From Planctomycetales bacterium (GTDB taxonomy: Bacteria > Planctomycetota > Planctomycetia > Isosphaerales > Isosphaeraceae), in the NCBI GenBank assembly GCA_027459775.1, contig DAIDHE010000407.1, positions 1 through 38,731 on the forward strand: a stretch of 38,731 bases of DNA, in the 5' to 3' direction. Below, one piece after another: positions 10,342 through 38,567 of the stretch; the stretch's first letter is position 1, and each line of letters opens with the position of its first letter. A program made the translations under genes and the position numbers. The notes under the pieces are model-generated. The model had not been told where the DNA came from and did not search any database. It saw only the letters and a program-made list of their open reading frames with translations.

Positions 10342-10381
10342 CAATCCCCCGATCGATCGCGGGATGACGACGTCGTCGAGC

Positions 10382-10948: not shown

Positions 10949-11345
10949 TGGGAAAAAAATTCAAGTCTTTTGACCCTTCGTAGGCGTCTTCGTCAGATGG
11001 TTTCATAGCCGAGAGCCGGAATCTCTTGTTCGCCGCCCCGCGGAGAAGCTTCCGGGGCGACAGCCGCGACAACCGTGAACCCAGCAGCAGCCAGGTTTCC
11101 CGCGCCACGGCGGTGGGACGAAGCCCGACGCGCGCCAATCGTACTTCATCCCGCGTTCCTCTGTAAGTGGGTCGTCGCCGAGGACGGGACCGATCGCGTC
11201 TTCGTTCGCGGCGATGGCCGGAACCGTCGATGCGGCCGCGCCGCGGGATCGCCGTGCCGCCGTGCCTTCGTGTTTTCTCCACGGACTCCCCGGACCCCTG
11301 GTCGTCCGGCATCTGCCCGTGCCTCTTCCATCTGGTGAATTCATC
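10949..11345. other. Divergent intergenic region between ECF sigma factor and giant surface-protein gene
   Basis: About 400 bases that must contain the promoters for both directions if the two genes are independently expressed. The part next to the sigma gene (10949-11000) is AT-rich for this genome. A stretch at about 11254-11281 reads, on the minus strand, as a variant of the 'gaaaacacgaaggcacg' sequence known from translated junk of the 'ENTKARRHG' type in many genomes, so it may be a remnant of an interspersed repeat. I could not assign -35/-10 boxes. The frame of the giant gene stays open through the region back to 11214, but no signal supports a start before 11346. Confidence 0.4.
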
Positions 11346-20300: not shown

Positions 20301-23300
20301 ATCCTGGCGGGCGCGAGCGCCACGGTCAGCACGGCCACGAGCACCGGCGCGGTCGAGGCCGGTACCGGCGACTCGTCGATCCTCACCGCCGGGAACATTT
20401 CCATCCTGGCCAACAACCAGAGCTTGCAGGCCGCCAGCGCCACCGGCGTGGCCGTGGGGGGCTTCTTCGCGCTCGGCGTCGATATGGCCCAGGCGACGTC
20501 CAATGTCTCGACCTCGGCCACTCTGGGAACGGGAATCATCTCGGCGCCCCTCATGGGGACGATCGACGTGTTGGCGACGGGGCAGGACCAGAACAACGCC
20601 ACGTCCATCGCCGGCAGCGGAGGCGCGATCGCGGGCGACGCCTCGGTCGGAAAGACCAGCGACGGCTCGACGGTCGCGGCGGGCCTTTCCGGGGGTCTTC
20701 TTACGGCCAACATCGTCGATGTCGCCGCCGTCAACAACAGCGTCTACACGCCCCAGGTCAGTTCCATCAATGCCGCCTTGGCGGGCGCCAGCGGCGCACT
20801 CGCGACCGACACCGAGACCACCAGGGCCAACGCGACGGTCGCGAACGACACCGCGATCGACGCTGGCTTCGCCGTGAACGTCACGGCGCAGAACACGTTC
20901 ACGGAGAATCCGCCGACGAACGGAAACACCGTTTCCGCCGGGGCGGGCGGCTTCTTCAACGGCACGGCCGCCGAGAGCGACTCGACGATCACCGGCAACG
21001 CCAACGTCACGATCGGCGGCTCGGTCTTGATCGACGTGAACACCCCCACCAGCACCTCCACCGGAACCCCCGGCATCTTCCTGATCGCTTCGAGCGTGCT
21101 CGACACGACCGACCAGGTCGCGCTGTCGACGGGCGGCGCGATCGAGGGCGCCGGTGCCAATTCATCCCTCACGGCCACGCTGAATAACAACGTGACGACC
21201 GAGTCGACGTCCACGAGCCCCGACTCCTTCACGACCAACCAGAACATCGGGATCGGCACGTACACCACGGTGAACGCCGCCACTACGAGCGAGGCCCACA
21301 CCTGGGGCGTGGTCGCCGCGTTGGCCGCCGTCTCCGCCGACACGAGCGTGATCTCGAACCAGACCGTCCTGCTGGGCCCCGCCACGAACCTCATGGCCGC
21401 GCTCGACATCAACCTCACCGCCGGAGACAACCCCACTCCCGGCGCCCCCGTCACGCCCATGGTCGGCGATTCCAACGCCCAGTCGTATGCCCGCTCTTTC
21501 GTCGCCATCCCCTCCGCCTCGGCGACCACCACCCTCGCCAGCAACACGGCCCTGACCGTCGGCGTCGGCGACCAGATCGAGAGCGGAGAAAACATCACCC
21601 TGGCCGCCGTCCCTGGAAATCCCAGCGCGACGGCGCTGGGGGTCGGCCACGGTTACGAGATCGGGTTCATTCCGATCACGAACGGCTCGAGCTCGCCCAG
21701 CAGCCCGACCACCTCGACCATGACCATGGACGGTTCCCTCACGGCCGGCGTGTTCCACACGCTCAACATCACGATTCCCAACGCCGCCGACGCCGTCGAC
21801 GCCAACGGATACGGCATTTACAGCAACCAGGTCGCCGTCAACGGCGGCGCACCCGTCACCGTCGGCGGTCCCACGAGCGTCACCGTCGTGCCCAGCCCCT
21901 CGTCCGTGGGCTTCACGGCCAGCTTCGATCCCAGCTTCAATCCTTACAACATGATCGCGAATGCCGTAACGAGCGGGCTGATCACCGACCCGACCGAAGC
22001 CCTGGCGCTCGAAGGCGCTGTCTATGATGGGTCGATCGGCGCTATCGTGCTCGGCCCGCTCTTCGCCGCGGGGGGCGACGTGACGGTCAATGCCGGCGCC
22101 CTGCAAGGCGACGGCGCCATCACCGCCGACGGCGGCCCCACGATCACCGTGACCAATAACAGCCCCGACTACCTCGTGCTCGACTCGATCACCATTCCCG
22201 ACGAGCCCGGCGGCCACGTCAATTTCACCGGCACGGCGACCGCGCCCCCCTCGACCATGTCCGTCACCGAGTCGGGTACGAACGCTCGCCCGGTCGTGAA
22301 CATCCAGGAAGATTATAAAGGTCCAGTACCCCCCTCGGGCTCGAACACCAATGGGCCGTCGGTGTTTGTGTCGGCCGCGCTCGATTCGAGCGGCAACGTC
22401 GCGTTTGACACCAGCGGCGCGGTCAGCAACGAGGCGGGGCAAGTCACGATCACCGTGGTGGACGGTTCCTTGATCCAGGTGGGCGGCCTGAACGCCAATC
22501 AGGTGAACATCACGACGCAGAACGGCATCACCTCGGCCAACAACCCTTCTGGCCTTTCGGGCAATGCCGGGACGCCGGCCACCGATTGGAACCAGGTCGC
22601 GTCGTGGCCAAACGGTTACGACCCCTACACCAATTCGGTCCAGCCATCGAACCTGGCGAGCGTCTACGTGGCGGACGTGGCCAATGTGATGTACAACCCG
22701 AGCGGCGCTCTCTCGACCAACAATGCTCTGACCACATTCCTCATGAGCTACGCCGGCGTGACCCCGGGCTCGCTCAATCCCGACTCGGCCTACAACGATC
22801 AATTCCCACCCGCCGGCGTGGCGCCGCCAGCCGCCACCAGCCTGGTCTTCTTCGGCGCGGACGCCCCCTGGCTGGATGGAGCGGGTCTTCAGGACACCAA
22901 TGCCTCGGCCTCGGCGCAGAGCCCGGCCGGCCAGTATTACGAGGTTTCGCCCAGCGCCAACGACGGCCAGAACAACGACTACGCCGAAGGGATCTTCCCC
23001 ATGGTCCCCTACGAGCAGGTGGGCCCCACGACGGCGTCGGCTTACCCATCCATCACCGGCACGCTCACCAGCGGCTCGGAAGCGGTGACGGCGCTCAGCA
23101 GCGCGACGGGCCTGATAAACGGCGAGACCATCGTCGGCGCGGGCATCCCGCCCCGGACGACGATTCAGGTCGCCGCCTCGAGCTTCGTGGGCCTGGAGGG
23201 GACCGGATCCGATCTGATCGGTTTCGTCCCCATCACAACGGTGCTGTCTATCGGCGAGACCGTCTTCGGGACCGGCATCCCGTCTGGAACGACGATCCAG

Positions 23301-26300
23301 GCGATCACCCCCGCCGGCGTGTTCGAAACGGTCGGGCTTTCCGCGCCCGCGACAGCGACCGGGTTCGCGGGCTTCACCGCCGCGTCCCTCACTCTTTCGG
23401 CGCCCGCGACGATCTCGGCCACCGAGAGCCTCATCGTCGGCACCGCCAGCGCGATCAACGCCCAGCAGGTCTTCATCAACGCCGAATACGTCGACGTCAA
23501 TTCGCCGATGAACGTCGGACATCCCAATCAGAATTCGCTCAGCCTGCCCGCGACGCTCAACACCATCATCGCCCAGGACCAGACCGACTATTCCAACGGA
23601 GTCTACTCGTCGAATTCCGGCGACCCCAAGGGTTACTACACCCTCCCCGCGTCCACCGTCTCGCCGGGCGACAACCTCATCACCGCCCAGTACGACGCGA
23701 TGACAGGGCGGATCGTCGTCAACAACGTGAGCGCGGCCGGCGGCGGGTTCGTCCAGCTCGACGGCGCGATCATGAGCACCAATACGATGGGCGAGATCAA
23801 CGTCAGCTCCAACATCGGCCAGGCGACGATCAACAACCAGACGAACTACCCCATCGTGGTGAACAACGTCTCCGCCAGCAAAACGGTGACATCGACCTCG
23901 CTCAGCGGGGTCGACATCATCGACACCAACCAGGCCCCAGCCGCCGCGCAAACCTTGTACATCGACCAGCCAAGCGCCGGCGTCATCGACCAGTACGTGG
24001 GCACGGCCGGCGAGACCATCCAACAGATGGAACAGGGCTCGCCCACCCAGGTGCTCTCGGGAAGCTCGACCAACTACCTGCCCGAAGCCGGCCTGCGCTG
24101 GCAGTGGCAATTGCAAACCACCATGCAGCAGCCGTCGAGTTTCTCCCCGGGGACCATCACCACGGCCGGGTGGAGTTTTGATCTCGCCGCCGTATCCGGC
24201 CTGAGCGCGAACAATCCGTGGTATTACCTCACCTCTCCCAATGGCGGCGGGAGCATTCAGCCGGCCGGCTGGGAATACGTGCAAGCCGGGCTCCCCGTCT
24301 TCCAGGAAAACGTCAGCGGGGCGGTGACGAACTCAACTTCGCTGACCGTGTACTACCACGACGGGCACTACGGTTTCGCGCCGACGAACCCGGTGCAGTA
24401 CGATTCCAACGGCAATCCCATCGACCCATGGACCTACGTCTATGCCCTTCAGGCGCAGCTGACCTTGACCGAGTCAGTCAAAGCCGACAACCCGATCGGG
24501 ATCGCGTTCTCGGGGACGGCCCAGGCCACTGTCAACATCACGTCGGACGAGCCGGTGATCCTCGGGGGGAACATCGCCAATGCTCTCGGCTCGACGACGA
24601 TCACCGCGCCCAGCATCACCCAGATCGCCTCCGCCAGCCTCACGACCAACAACCTCACGCTGACCGCGACCGGGGGCGTCGGCACGGCGACCCAGCCCTT
24701 GAACGCAAGCCTGACGACGGGCGGAGTGCTCAACGTCCAGGCCGGCGTCCAGGGCGTCAACCTCGACCTGAGCTCGGGGGCGCTGCTCGGTCAGTTGAGC
24801 GCCGGTAACGCGACCAGCGGGTACGGCGACATCACTCTGAACGCGACCCAGAGCCTCGCCGTCGCGCCCGGCCTGCCAAGCGGGACGATCAACGTCACCG
24901 GCAACAACCTCACGCTCGATTCGTCGGCGGGCGCGATCGGCACGGCGGCCGCCCCGCTTCAAATCCAGGCGATGGGGGTCGTCAACGCGACCGCGCTCCA
25001 GGACGTGAACCTCGCTCAGGGCGCCCCCGGCCTCGAGGTCGGTCAGATCGTCTCGATCGCCGGCAATGTCACCCTCGACGCGCCTAACGGCTCGATCGTG
25101 AACGCCAGCGGCACGACCTGGATCACTCAGGTCGGTAGCGCCCAGAGCCAGCAAATCTGGGGAAACCTGAGCCTGACCGACCCCACCGCCCAGGAACAGC
25201 AGACGATCGCCGCCTTCCAGAACGAGGTCGACGCAACGTATCAAGGGTACTGGAACCTGCTCGACAACGGCGGCGCCCTCAATGGGGTCTTCACCCTGAA
25301 TGCCCAGGGCGTGGCGCTCTTCGAGGAGCAGGCGGCCCTCGCCCTGGGCGTTGCCAGCTCGACCCCAGCCCAGGTCCAGGCCTATGCCAACGCCCAGTAC
25401 CAGAACGACGTCGCCTTCTTCAATCAGAACCTCGACCCAAGCTGGGCGTCCTCGGCCGAATTCCAGACCTACGACCCGTCGTTCCAGGACGTGGCGACCT
25501 CGCAACAGGTTTCCAACCTTGAAAGCAACGCGGGCTGGACCACGGCCGTGCTCTTGAACCCGGTCGCCTTGGTGGCGGTCTACCCCGCGGCCGGCACGCC
25601 GGTCGGGATCGATACGCCGAACATCTCCGGGGCGAACGTGACCCTGCTGACGAGCGGAAGCATCGGCCAGGTGAGCGCTCCCGTGGTGATCTCGCAGGCC
25701 GACCTTCAATCGGGGTATCTGACGGCGGCCCAGCAATCAGCGCTCGCGAACGCAACGGCCCCAGGCGACGTGCTCATCACCTCCACGGGCGTCGTGGTCT
25801 CGCCGAACTCGCAGGTTTTTGTCTCGGCAACCGGCGTTCTGAACGCCACGGCCGCGGGGTCGATCACCGTTCAGGCGACGTCGCCGAGCCTGACCCTGAA
25901 CACGATCACCGCCGGGGGCGATGTCAACATCACGGCCCAGGGGAGCATTCTCGGCGCCGGCACGGGCCCCCAGGTCACCACGCCCGGCAACACCCTGCTG
26001 AAGGTGGGCACGGGCACCGTGGGAACCCCCACCGCGCCCATCAAGGTCAACGTGGGCGGTTCGGTCATCGTGTATACGCCGCCTGGAAACAGCAACATCA
26101 CCGGCGCCCAGACGACCATGCTGACCTTGAGCGCGAACCCCAGCGGCTCGTCGATCTATGGCGAATCGGTGACCTTCACGGCCACCGTCAGCGACACCGG
26201 CACGGGCGTCGGCACGCCGACCGGCAGCGTCGAGTTCTATGACGGGACGACCCTCCTCGGGCTCGGCTCCGCCCTCGGCGGCAGCGGCGCCAGCGCGACC

Positions 26301-28715
26301 TCGACCGTCACCCTCTCGACCTTGGCCGCCGGCGTTTATCCATCGATCAGCGCCGTCTACAACCCTAATGGGAATTTCGCGGGCAGCTCGGGCGGTCTGA
26401 GCTTCACGGTCGACCCGGCCCCCCTCACCATCACCGCCGACAACGCAAGCAAGACCTATGGCACGGCGACGACCTTCCTCGCCACCGCGTTCACGGAAAC
26501 CGGCCTGGTGAGCGGCGACACGATTATCGGCGTGGACGAGACCAGCACCGGCGCGCCCATCTCGGCGCCGGTCGGCGACTACAACATCGTTCCCTTCGCC
26601 GCCGCGATCAGCGATCCGAGCAACTACACCATCACCTACGTCGACGGCACTCTGACCGTCAACCCGGCGGCCCTGACGATCACCGCCAACGACGCGAGCA
26701 AGATCTACGGCACGACGATCACCTTTGGTGCGACGGCGTTCACGGAAATCGGGCTGGTGACGGCCAACGGCGACACGATCACCGGGGTCACCGAGACCAG
26801 CGCCGGAGCGCCCATGTCGGCGACCGTGGTTACGTATCCCATCGTCGCCAGCGCGGCCGCTGGGAGCGGGCTCGGCAATTACATCATCACCTACGTCGAC
26901 GGCACGCTGACCGTCAACCCAGCGCCCCTGACGATCACCGCCGACAACGAGAGCAAGCCGTTCGGCACGACGTTGATCTTCAGCGGCACGGCGTTCACGG
27001 AAATCGGGCTGGTGACGGCCAACGGCGACACGATCACCGGGGTCACCGAGACCAGCACGGGCGCGCCGGCGTCGGCGACCGTGGGTACGTATCCCATCGT
27101 GGCCAGCGATGCCGTCGGGAATCGCCTGAGCAACTACATCATCACCTACGTCGACGGCACGCTGACGGTCAACCAGTCGATCATCGTCCTGGATCCCACG
27201 GCCGCCAGCGCTTTTTCGCTCTCGGGAAATGCGATCGTCGCGCTGGCCGGCGGGGTGTTTGTCGATTCCAGTTCGCCGACGGCCCTTTCGGCCAATGGCA
27301 ACGCCCAGGTCACGGCGTCGGTGATCGACGTGACCGGCGGCGTCAACAGCAGCCAATACGCGAGCTTCAGTCCCGCCCCGACCACCGGGGCCCCCGCGCT
27401 GGCCGATCCGCTGGCCGCATTGGCCGAGCCGAGCACGGCCGGCCTGACCAATTATGGCGCGGTGAGCCTGAGCGGCACTTCGTCCGCGACGATCGAGCCT
27501 GGTATCTACACCCAGATCAGCGTTTCGGGCCAGGGCTCGCTCACCATGAACAGCGGCGTCTACATGATCGAGGGGGGCGGGTTCTCCGTCTCTGGACAGG
27601 GCAGCGTCAGCGGCGCGGGCGTGATGATCTTCAACGCGGGCGGCGACTATCCCAACACCGGTGGAAGCTACGGCGGCGTCAGCCTCAGCAGCCAGGGCTC
27701 GTACAACCTGAGCCCGCCGGCCAGCGGGACGTACGCGGGCATCACGATCTTCCAATCCAGGGACAATACCGCAGCCCTCTCGGTCAGCAGCAACGCCTCG
27801 GGGATGACCGGCACGATCTACGCGCCGGCCGCCGCACTCGCCGACAGCGGCAACGCCCAGCTCAATACGGCGATCGTCGCCGAGACCATGACCGTGAGCG
27901 GCAATGGGACGGCCGACGTCGTGACGCGCGACCATTCCGCGGGAACGCTTCGTGACATTCCGGCCCCGAACCGCGGCGCCCCGGGCATGAGCGCGCTCGC
28001 CACGAGTCTCCCCGTGCCCGAAGCCCCGGCGCTCGAAGCCCCGGCGACCTTGCCCGGGGCCGGTCAAAGCCGCGCCGCCATCGCCGTCTCCAACGGCCCG
28101 AGCATCTTCCAGCCGCGGAGCGATCACAGCCCGATCAACGGCGGTCTCAGCGCAACCCAGAGCCTCGACGCCAGCCTCGTCATGAGCAGCGGAGAAGACG
28201 TCGCTTTGACCCAGCTCAGCCTTGCCTCGACCGTGACCACAAGCTCCGACATCGCACCACTCGCCGACGGCGCGAGCCCGTCGTCCTCGATCAAACACGC
28301 TCGACAATCGCCCGCATGGTCGACCCCACGGCTGGTGGAAAGCGGATCGAGCCTTGAGGACGACCACGCCGTTTTCTCGCGAAGGGATTCGCGCGAGATC
28401 GACGCGGGCGTCTTCGGCCTGGCGAGGCTCGGGCGGGGGCCGCTGGCGGAATCGATCCTGGACGATCTGGCCGCCGAACGTCTCTTGTCACCAGGTCAAG
28501 ACGGGGCCGCGAGCGCCGCCGCCGCGTTTCCGCGGCCGAGCGTTGGCATCGTTGCCCGCGACGCGACGGATCTCGCCCCTGGGCAAGACCCGAAGGCTCA
28601 CTCCGCCACGTCCGCGGCGGGGCTGGTCGTGTTCGGGCTCGCCTCCGGAGCGTGGGCTCGGCGCTCGGGCATCCTGAATACCCGTCGGCGGCGGTTGGGA
28701 ATCTGGCCCCGGTGA
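11346..28715 (+). CDS. Giant beta-strand-repeat surface protein with LEPR-like N-terminus, Ig-like and MBG domains (5789 aa)
   Basis: One uninterrupted 17.4-kb frame. The N-terminus is Arg-rich (RRRRRGRP, 26-33) and followed by LENRTLLS (39-46), a variant of the planctomycete 'LEPRxLLS' export-associated motif; this fixes ATG 11346 as start. About residues 50-3500 are degenerate repeats of roughly 60-90 aa with a core like 'GAAVAVNIVNNTTTASIGSGA.V.A.G.V.V.A', as in filamentous or LktA-like adhesins, interrupted by Ser/Gly/Asp-rich low-complexity segments near 758-835 and 1175-1248. Then come mixed beta regions with SGPGIP-type units (near 1510 and 3930), an Ig-like domain (about 4922-5025, PTGSVEFYDG), three MBG-type repeats (5026-5277), a Gly/Ser-rich module (about 5300-5520), a linker, and a hydrophobic C-terminus with RRRR (about 5755-5789). 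I noticed no cysteine. Likely an exported adhesin or S-layer-like matrix protein. Confidence 0.93.
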   Translation: MSRSPWNRSFARQSSSFKGEPAPVDRRRRRGRPLELDTLENRTLLSVSALLNSGVLDINLSAANDQATITSTTSGIAVAGTGYTGAASFSGVTQLIVLGANTSSQDAPNQSVAFGGAAALLLDAPVGTDALNVSGVTSVTFTDITIDATSGDLSVTAAEATRAAGVLATTAPNASVTLAGATIQADNITIDANASSTYTNTAPLGGVLSALGVAAAVADLEPSATVAVGGSSRIAVNGAAGNVAIGADASVQLDSSTTVGTTVGGTALNPADAAIAVSVVNSSAVAQVGGGSTLSAGGAGVLSITSTNTTTVTTVVDGSGAVGGATAAVTLDNSTSQAFVAGGSTAAGGTVDILATTINTATTSAKSTATGAGSNSAIQNLLAGKVDPAYLSKVDPPPDSNSTSPAETASSGGLPLSVAGAVAVSRFTPTTQAYVDSSTVTAASAINIGASSDNNSTTTADGEATTSNALASVGVAVAVGDTVMGNTAAVESTTGAASLTAPTIMVQATTPAASPTDLHNVSATAISGVSGLDVGVAGALALNIASNTSEASIPAGSTVSMVGDVTFNAENAVAETATAQPPFQSPGGVGGSLGVGASVAVNIVDNTTVAELGDAARLTGVQNLTFTAGSSDAVATNAASGAGGGAVSISPSVGITVATNTTTAQVGAPDAANGTLVVGGAFSAVATHAALTSTATGAAAGTGTAASVGVSIALAFVTDQTTATTNRSIDATAGGVTLEADSSAASLVSSSASASGGPTATQEKNANNPPTQDTSEEGPGSDTADSGSVDGQNAAQRSYADGESGTLTDSKGNKVSAGNTKGDAATPAAKTSDGSVTVAAAVAVNIVNSQADATVPAGLTITATGPLTVTATNDTGDPTNPIYPANPVIGDTANAWGTDAGTAQVGIGAAVALNLVNASAAATIQAATINAAGVVVNAGMMGAAPLNQFGADATSGAGAGDIGVAGAVAINIVTNTSQALIETGAAVDAHGGDVSVTSLNNATDLTFAVPGSPATGGSLGVGASLALNVISDATQSEVQDGASLSNAGNVTVTAGSAQSILTWAQNGAAGAVALGGGIAIVIASDQTTADIGADAQTMNASGGLTIGASGSFAVNSVAAASSAPGQTFGLGASVVVNVAQDSFQAELGRDSVAGGAVSVTADPAVSSSQAAAIASESGAPASSPSSGTGSSSGSGGTADQTTQNQSSFAHAEGGSSSPGVAAPPTSNSELGSPSSSASGKSGGSSGATKVGVAAAVAVNVLSTSTVAMIDNGLTVTSGGALSVGTANQSSAAALADGRANVNQNSIGAAVSLNVASVTNSATIGSSDVVSAAGVSVTALMIQNAANDFSTQGLGVAIGTQAGVAGSAGINVVTVTTLASIGSGSIVVSSAGLSVQAANDETLQNIAFTEAVGSDAGAGAAVSVNVLNNTTNAFLDSNVQANVADLTQITAESSLNPSQDPIPNSTADTTVAAGNSLTEKQIAGIAYYEMNGLNAPVIGTTTPPPTAQELVSGPGIPVGTVVFENKTLPFTGVLTFGSNVVASDDTAFLNPLTTPQVGDTLSGPGILPGTTITNIVNSLNGTTITLSLPAIANGSEALAADRLLLFNPTSPLPTTGPVTLAGTIPGAPIDALALAVSSIPAADPHPTSFTVGAGASSGGAGVAGSFIVNVVNQTTDAYIGSGDSINTLVGTAGYPTANADEGVTVSATETMNVVDWAGAIGAGSDLGAGAALDVSIVAEDDQASIATGATVDAAQNVEVTASTNGSYQSVTGAVALSESAAIAGAASIEVLSPATSASIDAGATVSAQGNLLVQASRQASINTIAGQLGASGDASVGASVSTIVDTVNTAASIGSGDRVTARGQSGAIPVLTGLAPGATTSFSGVAVVAATFENVQAIVVGGSVSSSAGVAGSMAINVLDDTTLADIAAGATVTATAGTPGSGPGVMVTAADPLTLFSTAGALAAGGDAGLGAGVDIDSITKNTQAYIATATVAADGNVLVQATSSENLTSITAAVGASGSAAVVGSAGVYVLNVTTRAFIGDDPLNPTAGSTSVQAAGSILVAASESTVLDILSGNLSGSGTASIGVAASVPVITKTTEAFVGAGANMGALGLGAPITAETGSFAISYQPYGTSPGVAQPPSENANLTGNGNSLTSPRLGQERIATPETRAIHGLAVTAVNADSLQGVGVTGGASGSVAVNLSGAVAVLTNTTSASIGSGAAINAINTGAASNQSVLVAAGNDTSFLGIAGSLAISGDVSVAPGVVVMVVNNTTTASIDDGASVSALGDVAVVAHSSGDVLTIAAAAAVSGTAAGGGSVSYVGITDTTQANIGDSATSAGAGAQVHAGGNVLVDATDATLAYQVTGALAIGVAGAGVGGAVGIVNLTKNTTAFIGDDATVDALGNAPGLAGVFDGNYTNSGGFETLAIFSGVAVQAATSENVTNVAAAGAAGFYAGLAGGVSIELFHSNTQAYVGGGAQINTSSAGASPAQAVDVAAVNQASNFSFAGGLGGGIAGIAGGVDVGLMQNSTQAFIANGAVVQAQQDVDVYALSNDSVQTYALGAAVGVVGLVGSVSVWSIGVPYSAGYTDGNASDGTVQGVPSSGITGSSSSAEGQTGGASSMVGGLTNPSNNGAAGNTQYTSGVVGSNQSGVDGSISGDPVASAIASTTVPTGAVAFIGSGVSVSAGGNVNVRAQSEVSYSGVVGGLAAGVVGIGGSIEIANIAGNTQAYIDANTKVSAGGNVVVDAALASDNASGTAFAGTAGIIGIGAQVVDIQDGSTESATLNNGVTIPRAGQVQVTSSSNRTLLAQALGGDFGGVAAGVGVAIASAAGGPAAGIGSGVQIGKTGSVGGVDVAASAADTVTTKSYGVAAGYIGLTAVYSDATSSPTVQASVGSNAAITTAGAFQVTAQDAPAVDAQSIGAAISGSIGVGAAVSLANAGGTTSSTLGGSDVVSAASLLVEAGRFSNASAAPTAQSSATAGAGGILAGASATVSTATSTGAVEAGTGDSSILTAGNISILANNQSLQAASATGVAVGGFFALGVDMAQATSNVSTSATLGTGIISAPLMGTIDVLATGQDQNNATSIAGSGGAIAGDASVGKTSDGSTVAAGLSGGLLTANIVDVAAVNNSVYTPQVSSINAALAGASGALATDTETTRANATVANDTAIDAGFAVNVTAQNTFTENPPTNGNTVSAGAGGFFNGTAAESDSTITGNANVTIGGSVLIDVNTPTSTSTGTPGIFLIASSVLDTTDQVALSTGGAIEGAGANSSLTATLNNNVTTESTSTSPDSFTTNQNIGIGTYTTVNAATTSEAHTWGVVAALAAVSADTSVISNQTVLLGPATNLMAALDINLTAGDNPTPGAPVTPMVGDSNAQSYARSFVAIPSASATTTLASNTALTVGVGDQIESGENITLAAVPGNPSATALGVGHGYEIGFIPITNGSSSPSSPTTSTMTMDGSLTAGVFHTLNITIPNAADAVDANGYGIYSNQVAVNGGAPVTVGGPTSVTVVPSPSSVGFTASFDPSFNPYNMIANAVTSGLITDPTEALALEGAVYDGSIGAIVLGPLFAAGGDVTVNAGALQGDGAITADGGPTITVTNNSPDYLVLDSITIPDEPGGHVNFTGTATAPPSTMSVTESGTNARPVVNIQEDYKGPVPPSGSNTNGPSVFVSAALDSSGNVAFDTSGAVSNEAGQVTITVVDGSLIQVGGLNANQVNITTQNGITSANNPSGLSGNAGTPATDWNQVASWPNGYDPYTNSVQPSNLASVYVADVANVMYNPSGALSTNNALTTFLMSYAGVTPGSLNPDSAYNDQFPPAGVAPPAATSLVFFGADAPWLDGAGLQDTNASASAQSPAGQYYEVSPSANDGQNNDYAEGIFPMVPYEQVGPTTASAYPSITGTLTSGSEAVTALSSATGLINGETIVGAGIPPRTTIQVAASSFVGLEGTGSDLIGFVPITTVLSIGETVFGTGIPSGTTIQAITPAGVFETVGLSAPATATGFAGFTAASLTLSAPATISATESLIVGTASAINAQQVFINAEYVDVNSPMNVGHPNQNSLSLPATLNTIIAQDQTDYSNGVYSSNSGDPKGYYTLPASTVSPGDNLITAQYDAMTGRIVVNNVSAAGGGFVQLDGAIMSTNTMGEINVSSNIGQATINNQTNYPIVVNNVSASKTVTSTSLSGVDIIDTNQAPAAAQTLYIDQPSAGVIDQYVGTAGETIQQMEQGSPTQVLSGSSTNYLPEAGLRWQWQLQTTMQQPSSFSPGTITTAGWSFDLAAVSGLSANNPWYYLTSPNGGGSIQPAGWEYVQAGLPVFQENVSGAVTNSTSLTVYYHDGHYGFAPTNPVQYDSNGNPIDPWTYVYALQAQLTLTESVKADNPIGIAFSGTAQATVNITSDEPVILGGNIANALGSTTITAPSITQIASASLTTNNLTLTATGGVGTATQPLNASLTTGGVLNVQAGVQGVNLDLSSGALLGQLSAGNATSGYGDITLNATQSLAVAPGLPSGTINVTGNNLTLDSSAGAIGTAAAPLQIQAMGVVNATALQDVNLAQGAPGLEVGQIVSIAGNVTLDAPNGSIVNASGTTWITQVGSAQSQQIWGNLSLTDPTAQEQQTIAAFQNEVDATYQGYWNLLDNGGALNGVFTLNAQGVALFEEQAALALGVASSTPAQVQAYANAQYQNDVAFFNQNLDPSWASSAEFQTYDPSFQDVATSQQVSNLESNAGWTTAVLLNPVALVAVYPAAGTPVGIDTPNISGANVTLLTSGSIGQVSAPVVISQADLQSGYLTAAQQSALANATAPGDVLITSTGVVVSPNSQVFVSATGVLNATAAGSITVQATSPSLTLNTITAGGDVNITAQGSILGAGTGPQVTTPGNTLLKVGTGTVGTPTAPIKVNVGGSVIVYTPPGNSNITGAQTTMLTLSANPSGSSIYGESVTFTATVSDTGTGVGTPTGSVEFYDGTTLLGLGSALGGSGASATSTVTLSTLAAGVYPSISAVYNPNGNFAGSSGGLSFTVDPAPLTITADNASKTYGTATTFLATAFTETGLVSGDTIIGVDETSTGAPISAPVGDYNIVPFAAAISDPSNYTITYVDGTLTVNPAALTITANDASKIYGTTITFGATAFTEIGLVTANGDTITGVTETSAGAPMSATVVTYPIVASAAAGSGLGNYIITYVDGTLTVNPAPLTITADNESKPFGTTLIFSGTAFTEIGLVTANGDTITGVTETSTGAPASATVGTYPIVASDAVGNRLSNYIITYVDGTLTVNQSIIVLDPTAASAFSLSGNAIVALAGGVFVDSSSPTALSANGNAQVTASVIDVTGGVNSSQYASFSPAPTTGAPALADPLAALAEPSTAGLTNYGAVSLSGTSSATIEPGIYTQISVSGQGSLTMNSGVYMIEGGGFSVSGQGSVSGAGVMIFNAGGDYPNTGGSYGGVSLSSQGSYNLSPPASGTYAGITIFQSRDNTAALSVSSNASGMTGTIYAPAAALADSGNAQLNTAIVAETMTVSGNGTADVVTRDHSAGTLRDIPAPNRGAPGMSALATSLPVPEAPALEAPATLPGAGQSRAAIAVSNGPSIFQPRSDHSPINGGLSATQSLDASLVMSSGEDVALTQLSLASTVTTSSDIAPLADGASPSSSIKHARQSPAWSTPRLVESGSSLEDDHAVFSRRDSREIDAGVFGLARLGRGPLAESILDDLAAERLLSPGQDGAASAAAAFPRPSVGIVARDATDLAPGQDPKAHSATSAAGLVVFGLASGAWARRSGILNTRRRRLGIWPR
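11700..21800 (+). repeat. Degenerate beta-strand repeat array inside the giant gene
   Basis: Throughout this stretch the product cycles through the same pattern: a Gly/Ala turn, 'VAVNIV', 'NTT.A.I', 'GA.V.A', then a short beta strand and a variable loop. I estimate some 40 or more copies of about 60-90 codons, with boundaries only approximate. The DNA copies have diverged, so the array is a protein-level repeat rather than a recent tandem duplication. A right-handed beta-helix or filament is the natural expectation. Confidence 0.7.
26421..27177 (+). repeat. Three tandem MBG-type domain repeats, two sharing an exact 69-bp block
   Basis: Three units of about 81-85 codons begin LTITADNASKTYG, LTITANDASKIYG and LTITADNESKPFG, and each ends NYIITYVDGTLTVN or close to it. 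This is the pattern of MBG domains in bacterial surface proteins. Units 2 and 3 share an identical 69-base block at 26733-26801 and 26988-27056, exactly 255 bases (85 codons) apart, showing a recent in-frame duplication or gene conversion. Confidence 0.8.
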
Positions 28716-30224: not shown

Positions 30225-31016
30225 ATGCCGACCACACGAGCGACTTCCACGCCCGAGGCCCGACAGATTGACGCCCTCAAGCGCCAGGTGATCGCCCTTC
30301 AGCGCATCAGCAGCCTGGGCGTCCTGGCCGGCGGCGTGTTTCACGAGCTCAACAACGCGCTCACGCCCATCACCAGCTATGCCAAGCTGGCGCTGCGCAA
30401 TCCCGACCCGGCCTATCGCGAGCGGGCGCTCAAGCAGATCATCGAGGCGTCGGATCGCGCGGCGGCAATCTCGCGGGGAATGCTGGGTCTGTCGCGGCCC
30501 GGCGGCATCGACGACCGCGAACCGACCGAGCTGGCCCGGCTGGTCGAGGAAGTCGCCTTGCTCGTCAAGAAAGACCTCGCGCGCCATCACGTGCGGCTCG
30601 AGGTCAATGTGGCCGGCCGGCCCCGTTCGCGGGTCAATCCCGCCCAGATCCAGCAGGTGCTCTTGAACCTGCTCATCAACGCGCGCCAGGCGATGCCGGC
30701 TGGGGGCGTTGTGCGACTGGGTCTGAAGATCGACGAGAGCGGCCGGTCGGCCGAGGTCAGCGTGGCCGATTCCGGGGTTGGGATCGCGCCTGAGAATCTG
30801 CGGCGGATCTTCGAGCCGTTCTATTCGACCAAGACCGCCCCCGACGCGGCCGGTCTGGGTGGCACGGGCCTGGGCCTGGCCGTCTGCCGCGACATCATCG
30901 AGGCCCACCACGGCCGCCTCCGCGCCCAGAGCCGACCCGGCCAGGGCGCCGTCTTTACCATCATCCTCCCCATCCACGCGACCCCCGAATCGGCTCTCCA
31001 CGCCCAGTCGGCCTGA
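30225..31016 (+). CDS. Soluble histidine kinase without a sensor domain
   Basis: 263 aa. A short N-terminal helix (IDALKRQVIALQRISSLG) leads into a HisKA-type dimerisation domain with phospho-acceptor His40 in GVFHELNNALTPI. The HATPase domain has the N-box NLLINARQAM (148-157), G1 DSGVGI (182-187), the F-box region FEPFYSTK (196-203) and G2 GTGLGLAV (213-220), all intact. The sequence is of the NtrB/HWE-like 'FHELNN' kind common in cytoplasmic kinases. No PAS, GAF or membrane segment is present and no response regulator gene is adjacent, so both signal and partner must come from elsewhere; it may act in trans or through the N-terminal helix. ATG 30225 is the first start in frame after the upstream region. 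Confidence 0.92.
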   Translation: MPTTRATSTPEARQIDALKRQVIALQRISSLGVLAGGVFHELNNALTPITSYAKLALRNPDPAYRERALKQIIEASDRAAAISRGMLGLSRPGGIDDREPTELARLVEEVALLVKKDLARHHVRLEVNVAGRPRSRVNPAQIQQVLLNLLINARQAMPAGGVVRLGLKIDESGRSAEVSVADSGVGIAPENLRRIFEPFYSTKTAPDAAGLGGTGLGLAVCRDIIEAHHGRLRAQSRPGQGAVFTIILPIHATPESALHAQSA

Positions 31017-31145
31017 ATCCCGGGATCTCATATCGCTCGATTTCCGACGTCTTCCTGAAAATCATGGATAGTCGGCGCGCCGTTCTGGCACTCTATGACA
31101 GGAGCCTTCACCTGATCGTGTGCCAGACGCGGAAAGACCGATTCC

Positions 31146-32933
31146 ATGGTCCATCGAGTGGGGCGGACGGCGATCCGCGATCTTCAGACGCTGTTTGACC
31201 TGGGGACGACCCGGGGCCTGGGCGATCAGCGCTTGCTTGAGCTGTTCCTCGAACGCCGCGACGCCTCGGGCGAGGCGGCGTTTGGGGTTCTGGTCGAGCG
31301 CCATGGGCCGATGGTCTTGCGCGTTTGCACCAATGTGCTGGGCGACCCGGCCGACGCCGCCGATGCGTTTCAGGCGACGTTTCTGGTGCTGGTGCGCAAA
31401 CGGGGATCGGTGGGCCGGCTCGAGTCGCTGGCGGGCTGGCTGCACGGCGTGGCCTGCCGCGTGGCCGCCCGAACGCGGGTCGAGCGCGCCCGCCGTCGTG
31501 CTCGTGAAGAGCGCTCGGCGCTCCGGGTCCACGAGGCCGTGGGGGAGACCGTCGCCGCTCCCGAACGCGCTGAGCTGGGCCTGGCCGTTCAGCGCGAGGT
31601 CGCCCGGCTCCCCGAAAAATACCGCTCGGTCGTCGTGCTCTGCTACTGGGAGGGCCTGACCCACGAGCAAGCCGCCCACCGCCTCGACTGCCCGATCGGA
31701 ACCGTCCGCAGCCGCATGGCCCGTGCGCGTGAGATGCTGCGAACACGCCTGGTCAAGCGCGGGCTGGCCCCACTGGCCGCCGCGCTGGCCGCGCTCGGTG
31801 AATCGGGCGCTCGTGCCGCTTTTCTCGGCTCGGTTCCAGCGGGTCTCGTCCGTGTCACCGTCGCGGCGGCGTCTCAGGCCCTTTCGGGCCACGCCGCGGG
31901 CGGCCTGGCCGCCGCGGTCGCGGCGTCAGTTGTTTGGAGTATGAACATGTCCAAGATCGTGAAAGTGCTCGTGGCCTGCTCTTTTCTGTCGACGGGGGTG
32001 GTCGGGGCCAGCTTGTGGGCTCGGCAGGCCGTACAAACCCCGCCGGCAAAGCACGCCAGGCCGCCTCTCAAGCAAACGAAGAACGCACGAAAGCCGACAT
32101 TCAGGCCTGCGCTCGTGGTTCAGCCGCCCGATCTTTTGCTAGTCGAGGTGCTCGAGGCGCTCGCTGGCCGGCCCATCTCAGGCGAGCGTTTGGTTCGACC
32201 CGACGGAAGCGTCTCTCTCGGCTTCTATGGAGACGTGCAAGTTTCCGGACTCACTCTTGTTGAAATCAAAAAGAAAATCATCGAGCATCTCAGGAAGTTT
32301 CTCAGCGACGAATCGCTCGGTATCGTCGAGCTCGATCCGAACACTGGTGAGCCGGTCAAGGTCCGCGGTCCCGACGGAAAATTGATCGACAAGCCCATCG
32401 CGCCGGAAGAATCGGCCACCGTTTTCGTTGACGTGACGGCCTACAATTCGGCGCGGTTTTACGTCGAGGGCGAGGTTCTTCTGCCTGGTCGATTGCCGTA
32501 CACGGGCAGCGACGCCGTTCTGGACGGCATTCATCAGTCCGGGGATCGGCTCTCGACGGCCGATCGAGCCGCGATCCGACTGGTTCGCCAGTACCCGCCT
32601 GATTCGGAAATCCAGGTGCTTCCCATCAATTACGATGAGATCACGATGGGCACCGATCAAACGACCAATTACCATTTGCTTCCGGGTGATCGGATTGTAG
32701 TTCCGCGCTCGAAAAGCGCCGCCAAGATCGAAGCGGACTCGAAGGCCGGCCGGTCGCCGGGCAGCGTCGATGAGGCGTCTCGTCGGATGGAGGTCCGATT
32801 GAAACAGCTCGAGAACAAACTTGAGATTCTCATCAACAGAATCGACACACGCAGTCTCTATTTCGATCGCAGGATTCAGGAGCTCGAAGGTCGCCCCGCT
32901 CCCTCCGAAACCCCCAAAAAGGCCGCGGAGTGA
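31146..32933 (+). CDS. ECF sigma factor fused to a transmembrane segment and polysaccharide-export/SLBB-like domain
   Basis: 595 aa in one uninterrupted frame. Residues 45-110 are sigma region 2 (DAFQATFLVLVRKRGSVGR, LAGWLHGVACRVA) and 145-203 are region 4 (LPEKYRSVVVLCYWEGLTHEQAA, CPIGTVRSRMARAREMLR). An Ala-rich linker (205-265) leads to one membrane helix (about 269-292, IVKVLVACSFLSTGVVGASLW). Beyond it, PPDLLLVEVLEAL to about 395 looks like the N-terminal half of a Poly_export domain (RPDGSVSLGFYGDVQVSGLTL), and 435-520 is SLBB-like (FYVEGEVLLPGRLPYTG and LLPGDRIVVPR). Residues 545-582 form a coiled coil. A sigma factor in the cytoplasm tethered to an export-type domain outside would link capsule or envelope state to transcription. 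An ATG at 31947 (MSKIV) could alternatively start a separate export protein, but no Shine-Dalgarno site was seen for it. Confidence 0.88.
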   Translation: MVHRVGRTAIRDLQTLFDLGTTRGLGDQRLLELFLERRDASGEAAFGVLVERHGPMVLRVCTNVLGDPADAADAFQATFLVLVRKRGSVGRLESLAGWLHGVACRVAARTRVERARRRAREERSALRVHEAVGETVAAPERAELGLAVQREVARLPEKYRSVVVLCYWEGLTHEQAAHRLDCPIGTVRSRMARAREMLRTRLVKRGLAPLAAALAALGESGARAAFLGSVPAGLVRVTVAAASQALSGHAAGGLAAAVAASVVWSMNMSKIVKVLVACSFLSTGVVGASLWARQAVQTPPAKHARPPLKQTKNARKPTFRPALVVQPPDLLLVEVLEALAGRPISGERLVRPDGSVSLGFYGDVQVSGLTLVEIKKKIIEHLRKFLSDESLGIVELDPNTGEPVKVRGPDGKLIDKPIAPEESATVFVDVTAYNSARFYVEGEVLLPGRLPYTGSDAVLDGIHQSGDRLSTADRAAIRLVRQYPPDSEIQVLPINYDEITMGTDQTTNYHLLPGDRIVVPRSKSAAKIEADSKAGRSPGSVDEASRRMEVRLKQLENKLEILINRIDTRSLYFDRRIQELEGRPAPSETPKKAAE

Positions 32934-33935: not shown

Positions 33936-36900
33936 CTAGAGCGTAGCCACCCACGACGTCCCGTTGTACTCGTAATACTGGGGAGTGCCTGGCGAGATCC
34001 CGGGGCTGAACGCCAAAACCCAGCTCGTCGACATGGCTGAGAGGGAGACGACCCCTTCGCCAAACGAGTTTCCGAGAAGAACCATCGTTGTCGTGGTGTT
34101 GTAGTGGTAGTCGTCGACATAGCCAGACGCCGTGAGTGCAAAAACCAAAGGGTAGGACGAACTGTTCGCCGGTGGGCTAGCCGAGATCGCGATGAAGTTC
34201 GAGCTCGTCACCGAGGCAATCCCGCCCCAGTACTCGGTGTACGAATCGTAGGCGATGTCGTAGAGGTTGCCTTGACCGTTGATGACGAACACCGAAGGCT
34301 CGCTGCCCGTGCCCGTCGATGCTGGAGACGCCGAGATCGCGATGACGCTCACATCGACGACGTTAAGGCCGAACTTGTTGAAAGAGCCCGAGCTGTAGGT
34401 CCAGTAAAAAACGTTTCCGTTCCAGTCGAGGGTAAAGACGGAAGGGAAATCGCCGCTCGCCGTCGCCGCAACGCCCGAAATGGACGTGACGCTGAAGCCG
34501 GAGTCGATGCCGGCGTCGGTGTAGACTCCATATCCTCCCCAGATTGGAGGCGAGAGCGTGGCGTAGTACATGATTGGGAAGACACATCCCGCTCCGTTCA
34601 CGACGAAGACCGACGGGTAATTGTTCGTGGCGGAGGTCGCCGCCACGGCCGAGATCGAGGTGACGGTCGTTCCTACCAAGCCGCCGAAACTCGCCCAGCC
34701 TGTGGAAGAGCTGTAGACGAATTCGTAGACGTCACCCGTGGAGTTGAGCACGAAAACGGCCGGGTAGCCGTTTGTGGACGACGAGGCCGGGACGGACGAG
34801 ATCGCCGTCGCCGAGCTGTCGACCAGGCCGCCGAAAACGACCATCTGACCGCCGCTCTCTTCGTAGAAGTAGACGTCGCCGTTGCTCTGCCTTTCGAAGT
34901 AGGCTGGCGAGGAACTCCCAGGAACCTGCGAGATGGCGACATATCCCTGCCCCGACGCGGCCTCTGACTGCCCCCAGTTGGAACCAGTGTATCCGTAAAC
35001 CGTCCCGCCGGCATCTAGGGCAAAAAGCTGCGCACTCGGCGGCTGCCCCTCTTCAATGGCCGAAATGCTCGTTTCACCGCCCGCCCCGGTGACGATCGAT
35101 TGGGACCAAGTGGATCCGGTCAATGTGTAATAGCCCACGTTGCCGTCCGCGTTGAGCGCGAACACCGCGGCGGAGGGACCACCAGCGACCCCTGAAATGG
35201 CGGTATCGGAGCTCAACCCGGTAGTCACCGCGGACTGTGACCAGCCGGTCCCGTTCTGGGTGAAGTAGGACACGTTTCCATCGGCGTTCAGAGCAAAGAC
35301 CCCAGTGTCCACTCCGTCGTCGACCGCCGAGACCTGGGTGACGTTTTGACCCCCTGCCGAGTACAGGCTCGACGAAGACCAAGTCGTCCCTCCCTGCGAC
35401 TGGAAATATTCCGACACGAGTCCCGCCGGGCTAAGAGTGAAGACGGCTGGAGTGGCGCCGATGCTGATCCCGGCGACGGCGGTGACCGCCGCAGTGCCCG
35501 AAACCGAGGACGAGATCCAGGATGGGCCGTCCAACGTGTACAGGTCGACACCGCCGTCGGCACCGAGTACGAAGACTCCGGGCACGGTGCCGGCGCTGAT
35601 TCCCGAGATGGCCTTCGCGACGAGCGCCGGGCTGAGAAGAGAACTGTTCCAGGCGCCGCCCGTCTGCTCGAAGAATTCGACGTTCCCGTCAGTCTCAAGG
35701 ACGAAGCCGGCGGGGGCGCCGTTGACTGTGACACCGGAAACGGCCTTCGCGGTTCCGGCGATGATCGTGGGGGGGCCCCCAGCCGGGGTGTAGGACACGT
35801 CCCCGGAACCGTCGATCGAGAAAACGCCCGCCGAGCCGGAGGCCGAAATCGCGGAGAGCAATGTCGATGGCGTGGCCGTCGTCGTCGCGCTGTCCGACCT
35901 CGAGTTGGTCTGGGCCAAGTCGAGGCCGTAGAGATTGATCGCGTTGTTGTTGCTCAGCGAAAGCGATTCGACAGTCTTCGACGGGTTCAAGGCGAAGTCG
36001 TATCCGTACAGGTACACACTCTTCGAGATCTGCCCGTACGTCGCGTTGTTGTAATACGGCATAACCGCGGCGATCGATTCCCCAGGGCCGACGGTTCCGG
36101 GGACGGGACCGTATCCCGGGGCCGCGTAGCCGTTGATGAAGTCGCTGATGGCCTGCGTGAACGTCTGGCTCGTCCCGTCGGTGTAGTAGACCGTGAAGGT
36201 GGCCTGCTGCTGCGTTCCGACCGAGGCGTGGGCCATGGCAAGCACCAGCAAGTCGGTGTACTGGCTCTGGGGCAGCGTGATCGACTGGCCCACGAACTGG
36301 CTTACGTCGGCGACCCCAGGGTTGCCAAGGGCGAATGGCTGACCGTCCCAGGTATAGGGCTGGCCGGAGGTCCAACTCGCCGCCGACCCCAGGGACTCGG
36401 CCGACAGCGAGTCGCCGCCAGGGTCGATGTTCCCGGGGGAAGTATTCGTATCGTAGGTGATTCCAACGGCGTTGAGGTTCGATGCAAGGCTCACCTGGAC
36501 CGCGCTTCCCGCGTTCAAAAGCGGTGGCGAAGTGGTGAGCGCCATCGACTCGGCGTCGTAGTACGTGCTATTTACGTACGCGGCGTTGACCTCCACATCG
36601 GTGGCTGGCGGCGAGACGCCGTCCCACGAAATCGTATTCCCCAACGTCGTCACGGCAAGCTGGCGCGGATCGACGAAAGTGGTCGCCGTTGGGTCCACGA
36701 CTGCGACACCGCTCGAGAACGACGAGTACTCGCCGGCGGTTCCGATCTGGATTACGTCGGAATTCTGGTAGTTGTAGCTGAAAGGATTGTCTGACAGTTG
36801 GACAGTCGCGTACGTGCGGCCGTAGGTGGTCGGAACCTCCGTCTGGCCGGAATCAGTGTAAATCCGGATCCCCGCCAGTGAGTTCTCAAAGGAGTTGTCA

Positions 36901-38567
36901 TGCACCACCACATTGAACATCGGGTTCTGGCTGACGTAGGTGCTGTTGAAGTTGCCCAGCGAGGAAACGCCGGGCTGCGCGCCGGATGTCGCGATCCGCA
37001 TGGCCTGGTTCACATTGGCCGACACCGTGCTCGTGGTCTGGTCGCCCACGATCGTGTTGCCTTGAACCAGGACATTATCGAAGGTGGAGTTCAGAACCAC
37101 CGCGGTTGACACCGTGCCTCTGGTGTCGATGGTGTTCCCCTCGACGTTGAAAACGTCGTAAGCGTTTTCAATCGCGAAATCGAAGGCACCAGACGGCATC
37201 GCGCTGGTCAGAACGAAATAGTCAACCGAGGCGGAGTAGTCGGCGATCGTCTGCGTGACGGGGATTGCGGTGCCGGCGCTGCTTCCGTCGAGAACAAACA
37301 GAACCAGTGTTCCCGCCTCGCCCAGCGGGGACGAGGAAACCGTCGTGAACAGCTCCGAGTCTGGGATCGCCACGATCCGGCCGTTATAGGGCTGCCCGGG
37401 GTCCGCCGACACATTCGCCGCGAGCGTACTTCCCTCGTACGTGATTCCATAGGACTCTGGGAGGATTTCCTCCGGGGCGTTCGAGCCGTTAGCCGGCAGG
37501 ATCCCGACGCCCTGCTGGACGGTGTTGCCTTGGACCTGGATATTGTATCCGCCGTAATTGGCGGTCATGAGCCGGTAGATTTCCCCGTTCTGGGCGGGGT
37601 TGGGATCCTCGACGGTGTTGTTCTCGATCGTGACGTCGTGTCCCCCATAGACCGCGAAGGCGCTCGGACTGACGGTCCCCGCGACCGATCCCAGCGGGAA
37701 CATGTTGCCTGAGATCGTCCAGGGGCCGAACTGTACCGCGACCGTGCCGCCGTAAATCGTGTTGTCCTGGATCGTTCCGGAGTCGTACGGCCCCATGTAG
37801 ATCGCGTAGTCAGTGACGTACGATCCCGAGTCCAGCGGGTCGTTGTAGATCTGCATTGTATTAATGTGGTTGCTGTCGAACGGTGAGTGGATCGTCAGCC
37901 CAACGATGTTGATGCCGACCTTGGCGATCTGATGGGGATCTTCGTCCTCAATGACGGCGCCGTGCGCGTCCCCCATCGTGACATCTGATTGGCTGAACTT
38001 GATCGTGAAATCCTGGAGAGTGACATCGCTCGTCCAATAATTGATTGATGTGCCCGTTTGCCAGAAGTTGATCGCCCCAACCCCGCCTGGGGTCGACGTG
38101 AAGTCGAATTGAAGGGTATCCGTTCTGCTCTGTCCATAGAGGGTTACCGGGTGGTCCAGGTAAAGAGGCGTGCTGAGGTCGTAGACGGGAGAGACAAGCT
38201 CGAAGTTGTTCGCGCCGCTCGTGGCCGAGTCGAGCAACTGCTGGAAGGTGATCGGATTTGAGAGTCCCGCGTAGGTCACCATATTTTCCGAGCCGGCGTA
38301 CTGGACCTGGATGGGCGTCGAACTGATGGGCGGGTACTCGCTCGCCTGACCGGTCCACTGGATATTCGCCGGGTTGGTGTGGTCTGTCGAAGGGACGGTA
38401 ACGTCGCTCACGTAGACCGCGCCGGGATTGCCGACCAATTGGTACGTCAGGGTCATCGTAGTGCCAGCCTCGTCCCTGATCGGGGGGAAAGTGAACGTCG
38501 CCGCCGTGCCGGTCGGGTTCATCGCGAGGGTCATCCCGAGCTCGGGGCGGCCCGTGGTCCCGTACAC
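33936..38567 (-). CDS. Large surface-type protein: beta-helix plus 14 lectin-like propeller repeats, probably 5' truncated
   Basis: 1543 aa from the first GTG (38565-38567). The frame is open only to a stop at 38624-38622, and there is no signal peptide, which is unusual for a protein of this type. About residues 120-640 read as a right-handed beta-helix (VTLYGQ, DVTLQDFTI, TIQDNTIYGG, DVTIENNTVED, NIQVQGNTV, NVEGNTID, NVVVHDNSFEN). About residues 900-1543 hold 14 repeats of about 45-50 aa with the pattern 'AISGV..G..PAVFALNADGNVSYFTQ....W..S', resembling PLL/tectonin-like sugar-binding propellers; 14 would make two seven-blade propellers. GC is visibly lower than in the neighbouring genes. 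The upstream flank is the end of an IS transposase, so the N-terminus was probably lost. The protein may be silent, or expressed without export. Confidence 0.8.
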   Translation of the reverse strand: MYGTTGRPELGMTLAMNPTGTAATFTFPPIRDEAGTTMTLTYQLVGNPGAVYVSDVTVPSTDHTNPANIQWTGQASEYPPISSTPIQVQYAGSENMVTYAGLSNPITFQQLLDSATSGANNFELVSPVYDLSTPLYLDHPVTLYGQSRTDTLQFDFTSTPGGVGAINFWQTGTSINYWTSDVTLQDFTIKFSQSDVTMGDAHGAVIEDEDPHQIAKVGINIVGLTIHSPFDSNHINTMQIYNDPLDSGSYVTDYAIYMGPYDSGTIQDNTIYGGTVAVQFGPWTISGNMFPLGSVAGTVSPSAFAVYGGHDVTIENNTVEDPNPAQNGEIYRLMTANYGGYNIQVQGNTVQQGVGILPANGSNAPEEILPESYGITYEGSTLAANVSADPGQPYNGRIVAIPDSELFTTVSSSPLGEAGTLVLFVLDGSSAGTAIPVTQTIADYSASVDYFVLTSAMPSGAFDFAIENAYDVFNVEGNTIDTRGTVSTAVVLNSTFDNVLVQGNTIVGDQTTSTVSANVNQAMRIATSGAQPGVSSLGNFNSTYVSQNPMFNVVVHDNSFENSLAGIRIYTDSGQTEVPTTYGRTYATVQLSDNPFSYNYQNSDVIQIGTAGEYSSFSSGVAVVDPTATTFVDPRQLAVTTLGNTISWDGVSPPATDVEVNAAYVNSTYYDAESMALTTSPPLLNAGSAVQVSLASNLNAVGITYDTNTSPGNIDPGGDSLSAESLGSAASWTSGQPYTWDGQPFALGNPGVADVSQFVGQSITLPQSQYTDLLVLAMAHASVGTQQQATFTVYYTDGTSQTFTQAISDFINGYAAPGYGPVPGTVGPGESIAAVMPYYNNATYGQISKSVYLYGYDFALNPSKTVESLSLSNNNAINLYGLDLAQTNSRSDSATTTATPSTLLSAISASGSAGVFSIDGSGDVSYTPAGGPPTIIAGTAKAVSGVTVNGAPAGFVLETDGNVEFFEQTGGAWNSSLLSPALVAKAISGISAGTVPGVFVLGADGGVDLYTLDGPSWISSSVSGTAAVTAVAGISIGATPAVFTLSPAGLVSEYFQSQGGTTWSSSSLYSAGGQNVTQVSAVDDGVDTGVFALNADGNVSYFTQNGTGWSQSAVTTGLSSDTAISGVAGGPSAAVFALNADGNVGYYTLTGSTWSQSIVTGAGGETSISAIEEGQPPSAQLFALDAGGTVYGYTGSNWGQSEAASGQGYVAISQVPGSSSPAYFERQSNGDVYFYEESGGQMVVFGGLVDSSATAISSVPASSSTNGYPAVFVLNSTGDVYEFVYSSSTGWASFGGLVGTTVTSISAVAATSATNNYPSVFVVNGAGCVFPIMYYATLSPPIWGGYGVYTDAGIDSGFSVTSISGVAATASGDFPSVFTLDWNGNVFYWTYSSGSFNKFGLNVVDVSVIAISASPASTGTGSEPSVFVINGQGNLYDIAYDSYTEYWGGIASVTSSNFIAISASPPANSSSYPLVFALTASGYVDDYHYNTTTTMVLLGNSFGEGVVSLSAMSTSWVLAFSPGISPGTPQYYEYNGTSWVATL

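Follow-up and report, generated by a model that had tools for sequence, protein, structure and literature searches.

ECF sigma factors with C-terminal extensions, including membrane-tethered ones that are activated by proteolysis, have been described in a review (PMC8999054). IutY of Pseudomonas putida is a sigma/anti-sigma hybrid for which release is carried out by Prc and RseP (PMC5411451), and SCO4117, an actinobacterial member of ECF52, has a carbohydrate-binding outer domain (PMC8999054). Class-3 OPX proteins, for example WzaB of Myxococcus, consist of Poly_export and SLBB domains without Wza_C; they are mostly secreted or lipoproteins, and in myxobacteria their genes are mostly located near a porin (PMC9603273). 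Planctomycetes carry dozens of ECF factors whose C-terminal extensions are unexplained.

The locus described here lies in a window of 38,731 nucleotides (the whole stretch of DNA analysed) from a Planctomycetales bacterium of the family Isosphaeraceae, and encodes an ECF sigma factor joined through a membrane helix to an OPX-like domain. Beyond the sequence-only reading of this DNA, the analysis adds a family of swappable architectures to which the gene belongs, a private promoter and a conserved internal translation start.

One reading frame for sigma factor and OPX-like domain

The features of the locus are given in Table 1. The sequence-only reading had placed sigma regions 2 and 4, a membrane helix, an export-type domain and a coiled coil in a single frame, and this was borne out by the open reading frame, Pfam and hydropathy, the latter giving one hydrophobic helix. 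Sigma70_r2, Sigma70_r4_2 and Poly_export scored over the Pfam cut-offs and SLBB_2 below. Both sigma regions being over cut-off and TIGR02937 being matched at 72.6 bits (versus 42.9), the N-terminal part is an ECF sigma factor. No Pfam match was found in the fusion product to sigma region 1 or 3, to a FecR/CSS-type anti-sigma domain or to a zinc-finger anti-sigma domain, the latter a trait of ECF48/52/53.

Table 1. Coordinates of the features at the fusion locus (positions in the window).
Feature	Position	Strand	Basis
-35 element TGGATAG, conserved ECF-type promoter	31065..31071	+	Aligned upstream regions; exact pattern once in genome
-10 element GGCACT, same promoter	31087..31092	+	Aligned upstream regions; once in genome
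ECF sigma–TM–Poly_export/SLBB–coiled coil fusion gene	31146..32933	+	One uninterrupted frame, ATG to TGA, 595 aa
Sigma70_r2 (PF04542), residues 49-110	31290..31475	+	Pfam 7e-9, over cut-off
Sigma70_r4_2 (PF08281), residues 147-198	31584..31739	+	Pfam 1e-15, over cut-off
Internal Shine-Dalgarno (SD) GGAG	31936..31939	+	7 nt before ATG 31947; family-wide statistics, kinase control
Predicted second product, 328-aa extracytoplasmic protein, signal-like N-terminal helix	31947..32933	+	Translation inferred
Single membrane helix / signal-peptide-like segment, residues 271-289	31956..32012	+	Hydropathy
Poly_export, residues 321-388	32106..32309	+	Pfam 1.6e-10, over cut-off; Wza matches
SLBB-like domain, residues 437-519	32454..32702	+	SLBB_2 E 0.003, below cut-off; Wza profile and fold matches
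C-terminal coiled coil, about residues 541-581	32766..32888	+	AlphaFold helix; repeated leucine-containing pattern (RLxxLExKLDxxL-type) among relatives

The identity of the second half as Poly_export/SLBB stands on three kinds of evidence. In addition to Pfam, a profile of the relatives' outer domain matched Wza in the PDB at 2e-19 in two stretches, and Foldseek searches with the modelled outer domain (AlphaFold, residues 294-595, mean pLDDT 77.6) returned Wza and the class-3 OPX protein WzaB (9n9a) at E values of about 1e-11 to 1e-12. The SLBB assignment is secured because of the Wza profile match and the Foldseek fold match. Together with the lack of Wza_C, the Poly_export and SLBB domains (SLBB alone being below the Pfam cut-off) correspond to OPX class 3. 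In the coiled coil, an alignment of the fusion relatives revealed a recurring RLxxLExKLDxxL-type pattern. The model of the full-length fusion was of low quality (mean pLDDT 66.7, and <50 for linker and helix); it was set aside as too uncertain and is uninformative on sigma-OPX contacts. As the sigma domain precedes the OPX part, the full-length product has no N-terminal secretion or lipoprotein signal, whereas in the predicted product starting at 31947 the signal-like helix would come first.

Distribution and origin of the fusion

The same single-frame fusion was found in 22 of the 45 family genomes examined, representing 8 of 21 genera and including Aquisphaera insulae and Paludisphaera soli; there is nearly always one copy per genome. 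The best relatives share 41-66% identity over the full length; sigma domain, helix, OPX motifs and coiled coil are all conserved in the alignment, and the OPX motifs are invariant. Among 398 genomes of the class, with scoring confined to the top candidates of each genome, no fusion was detected at E 1e-70 outside the family. A sequencing or assembly artefact, in particular a missed stop codon or frameshift in the interval 31760-31960, can be dismissed because the same single frame recurs in more than 20 genomes.

A single clade of fused sigma domains was rejected by the sigma tree (AU p 2.7e-7), and one clade was compatible with the tree of the OPX domains alone (p 0.135). A single origin of the fusion was discarded on the sigma tree, though not on the OPX tree. 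On the strength of the sigma tree, multiple fusion events are likely; the same sigma-OPX pairing probably arose more than once.

At four loci (L073, L053, L090 and L089, from G018, G061, G059 and relatives) the fusion gene is directly followed by another OPX-like gene, which is free. In the tree these free genes branch among the fused copies, in the way expected of duplicates that no longer have the sigma half. At another locus, a second tethered sigma factor with a long coiled coil adjoins the fusion gene (L079:11211-13250, + strand); it has a Poly_export-like part and no clear SLBB domain.

A large set of tethered ECF factors

The fusion is part of a large planctomycete set of membrane-tethered ECF factors with swapped extracytoplasmic parts, and the OPX fusion is one among dozens of swappable architectures. 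A helix follows region 4, mostly about 55-75 residues on, in all 68 nonidentical ECF tails from several genomes, which fall into 29 sequence groups. Pfam domains tallied for 64 tails include CarboxypepD_reg (10), HlyD (7), redoxin (4), CBM9 (3) and WD40 (2), among others. Close sigma paralogues in the source genome keep the helix and differ in their outer parts: L004 has a HlyD-type adaptor tail by Pfam, L005 a coiled coil and L006, as judged by eye, a short secretin-like domain. The set also reaches other planctomycete families: of seven genomes, three had members (60, 41 and 7) and the rest had none.

A putative private promoter

The upstream regions of the main fusion group have TGGATAG-N15-GGCACT in common, while their flanks diverge in the alignment. 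The exact pattern was matched in 10 of 12 genomes, every time at the fusion gene, and the only match in the source genome is the one ahead of the fusion. G062 has an additional match, which is situated within or next to open frames and was regarded as fortuitous. No wider regulon was seen, because matches with two mismatches were no more numerous than in the reversed control. These data fit a sigma factor acting chiefly on the gene that encodes it, and from the position of the promoter we infer autoregulation of the fusion gene.

Other members of the tethered set have different ECF-like elements, which by eye are conserved pairwise between orthologues. The pattern TGGA(A/T)-N14-18-(C/G/T)CA(C/T/G)TA, which was written after the regions had been viewed, occurs in 15 of 90 upstream regions and in none of the reversed controls.

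A start signal within the gene

Just ahead of the membrane helix, an SD sequence and an in-frame ATG are conserved across the tethered set, and the amino acids encoded by the SD vary among members (E-G-V, W-S, R-R). Statistics were compiled for 90 nonredundant members with other windows as the control. An ATG was present beside the helix in 86 of 90 members, compared with 480 of 2222 control windows, and was accompanied by an SD of at least 5 nt in 45 of 86 versus 22 of 480 (p 3e-26; because members share ancestry, this and the following p-values overstate independence). Codon usage around the site is also unusual: glycine is encoded by GGA in 69% of cases near the site and 14% elsewhere in the same genes (p 9e-22), AGA/AGG make up 45% versus 10% for arginine, GAA 66% versus 31%, and GC3 drops at the SD codons, -6/-5 of the internal ATG. 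The folding energy of 40 nt of RNA at the internal start is -6.8 versus -11.8 kcal/mol (p 7e-21), indicating a relaxed structure. The result was replicated in 28 members from other planctomycete families (ATG in 22, p 9e-9; SD, p 1e-4; folding, p 3e-5), and membrane kinases with a helix from the same genomes had the ATG in 2 of 15 and no SD.

The signal is not uniform. An SD of 5 nt is missing in about half of the members, and the spacing from SD to ATG is 11 nt in many of them, which is rather long. Among close orthologues the codons near the site are only modestly more conserved (81% vs 71%, p 0.02), and a signal-peptidase motif at the helix was not enriched (40 of 86, versus 34 in shuffles). 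Selection for an internal start signal is nevertheless evident at the level of sequence, and the codon choice appears hard to explain otherwise. A separate start at 31947 for the second half, which the sequence-only reading had held to speak against a fusion, is therefore supported, as the source of an additional product. Given the private promoter and the apparent internal start, the gene probably yields two products, a regulator tethered to the membrane and a free envelope protein that this regulator may control.

Neighbouring genes

The genes beside the fusions encode a histidine kinase, alpha/beta hydrolase, FAA hydrolase, enolase or RND pump, and at the loci examined no polysaccharide genes were found beside the fusions or the core standalone OPX copies. 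In the window, a histidine kinase (HisKA, HATPase_c; 30225-31016, +) is directly upstream of the fusion. This neighbour is shared by G002 (L069) and G006 (L070), and an alpha/beta hydrolase lies farther upstream. The window also carries a giant repetitive ORF of 5833 aa, probably a surface adhesin-like protein (11214-28715, +), a serine/threonine kinase with a membrane helix (6835-10428, -) and, adjoining the fusion locus, a repetitive protein of 1543 aa (33936-38567, -).

Family genomes commonly encode a separate OPX-like protein too. That of the source genome is 58% identical and lipoprotein-like, and its gene adjoins those for a phosphatase and for a small secreted protein, with no polysaccharide genes alongside. 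In several genomes the flanks of the core standalone OPX-like lipoprotein gene (e.g. L086:13978-17704) encode small secreted proteins together with a DSP-type phosphatase. A polysaccharide operon thus had no support around either fused or core standalone copies. The earlier interpretation held for the architecture and for the lack of a described example; its capsule-export partner found no support, and because the fusion neighbours are not polysaccharide genes a direct switch from capsule to transcription is hypothetical.

Possible function and alternative explanations

The architecture and its conservation, and the conservation and near-uniqueness of the promoter pattern, are established from sequence. 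We consider it probable, with some reserve, that the gene is a self-regulated envelope circuit, in which a tethered ECF sigma factor has its own promoter and an internal start provides a free OPX-like protein. The sigma domain would be cytoplasmic, with one helix spanning the inner membrane and the class-3 OPX-like domain and coiled coil outside, and would most likely recognise mainly the private promoter at 31065-31092. From the same mRNA, the internal ribosome-binding site and ATG (31936-31949) would give a free OPX-like protein without sigma. The OPX-like part may sense or join an envelope complex, whether a ring of OPX proteins or free copies of itself, and its state could keep the sigma factor tethered or free it. 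Release would probably follow the IutY precedent, through intramembrane cleavage of the site-2 type, and site-2 protease genes are present in the source genome. Released sigma would then boost synthesis of the gene's own envelope product, with the free OPX-like protein acting as partner, decoy or effector of the tethered copy. A putative direct switch without a separate anti-sigma factor is plausible. More tentatively, and with rather less confidence than in the circuit itself, the complete one-frame unit (private promoter, mainly self-serving sigma factor, helix, and an envelope domain made both fused and free) may be repeated dozens of times in one genome with swappable outer domains.

It is unlikely that only the full-length fusion matters, with the OPX domain reading the state of export or capsule and freeing a sigma factor that controls polysaccharide genes. 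The OPX domain is real by Pfam, PDB profile and Foldseek, and tethered sigma factors activated by proteolysis are known (IutY, PMC5411451; ECF52, PMC8999054), but the fusions have no adjoining polysaccharide genes, each matching genome has one exact promoter match (two in one genome), at the fusion gene, and the internal start is conserved. That start, with its SD, ATG and signal-like helix, resembles the beginning of a gene, as would be expected if these were two ordinary proteins in one frame, with the fusion a lost-stop by-product and the internal start the true second gene. This appears quite improbable, however, as the frame from sigma to ATG is open in essentially every member and a useless fusion could easily gain a stop; almost all of the relatives listed for three genomes have frames of >400 aa, and the one short relative inspected (L184) ends at a contig end.

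It has been proposed that ribosomes pause at SD-like stretches close to membrane segments, so that the stretch seen here could merely slow translation for co-translational insertion of the helix, with a single product. Pausing requires neither an ATG at a fixed distance nor relaxed RNA structure, and the signal is absent from the membrane kinases of the same genomes; we regard this explanation as very unlikely. That the fusion is neutral, and merely reflects how often domains are shuffled in these genomes, is hardly credible: related sigma domains do bear many different tails, but the fusion is conserved over its whole length in 8 genera with invariant OPX motifs, and a single origin is rejected by the sigma tree, if not by the OPX tree alone. 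If the self-regulated circuit is correct, internal starts and private promoters would explain many extended ECFs at once, as envelope-protein feedback loops built into one gene, and would provide modular membrane-gated switches that have distinct promoters.

Comparison with known systems

That no example of this architecture had been described agrees with the literature searched, in which neither the fusion nor the internal start was found and which lacked two key planctomycete studies (Jogler 2012, Wiegand 2020). The planctomycete C-terminally extended ECFs with WD40 and other parts come from the same phylum and are likewise expanded paralogues with extra domains (PMC8567305); they differ in that no Poly_export/SLBB member, private promoter or internal start is described for them in the literature searched.

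Like the fusion, IutY combines an N-terminal ECF sigma factor, one membrane helix and an extracytoplasmic sensing part in a single polypeptide (PMC5411451). IutY however carries a CSS-type anti-sigma domain in the periplasm and is partnered by an outer-membrane receptor, whereas the outer part of the fusion is OPX-like, and the conserved internal start is a feature of the planctomycete tethered set. ECF52 (SCO4117) and ECF48/53 of actinobacteria are similar in their C-terminal helix or helices, their outer domains and the proteolysis model (PMC8999054), and differ by a zinc-finger anti-sigma domain, none of which was found in the fusion. In contrast to known class-3 OPX proteins, the OPX domain here is carried by a sigma factor and is located away from a polysaccharide locus.
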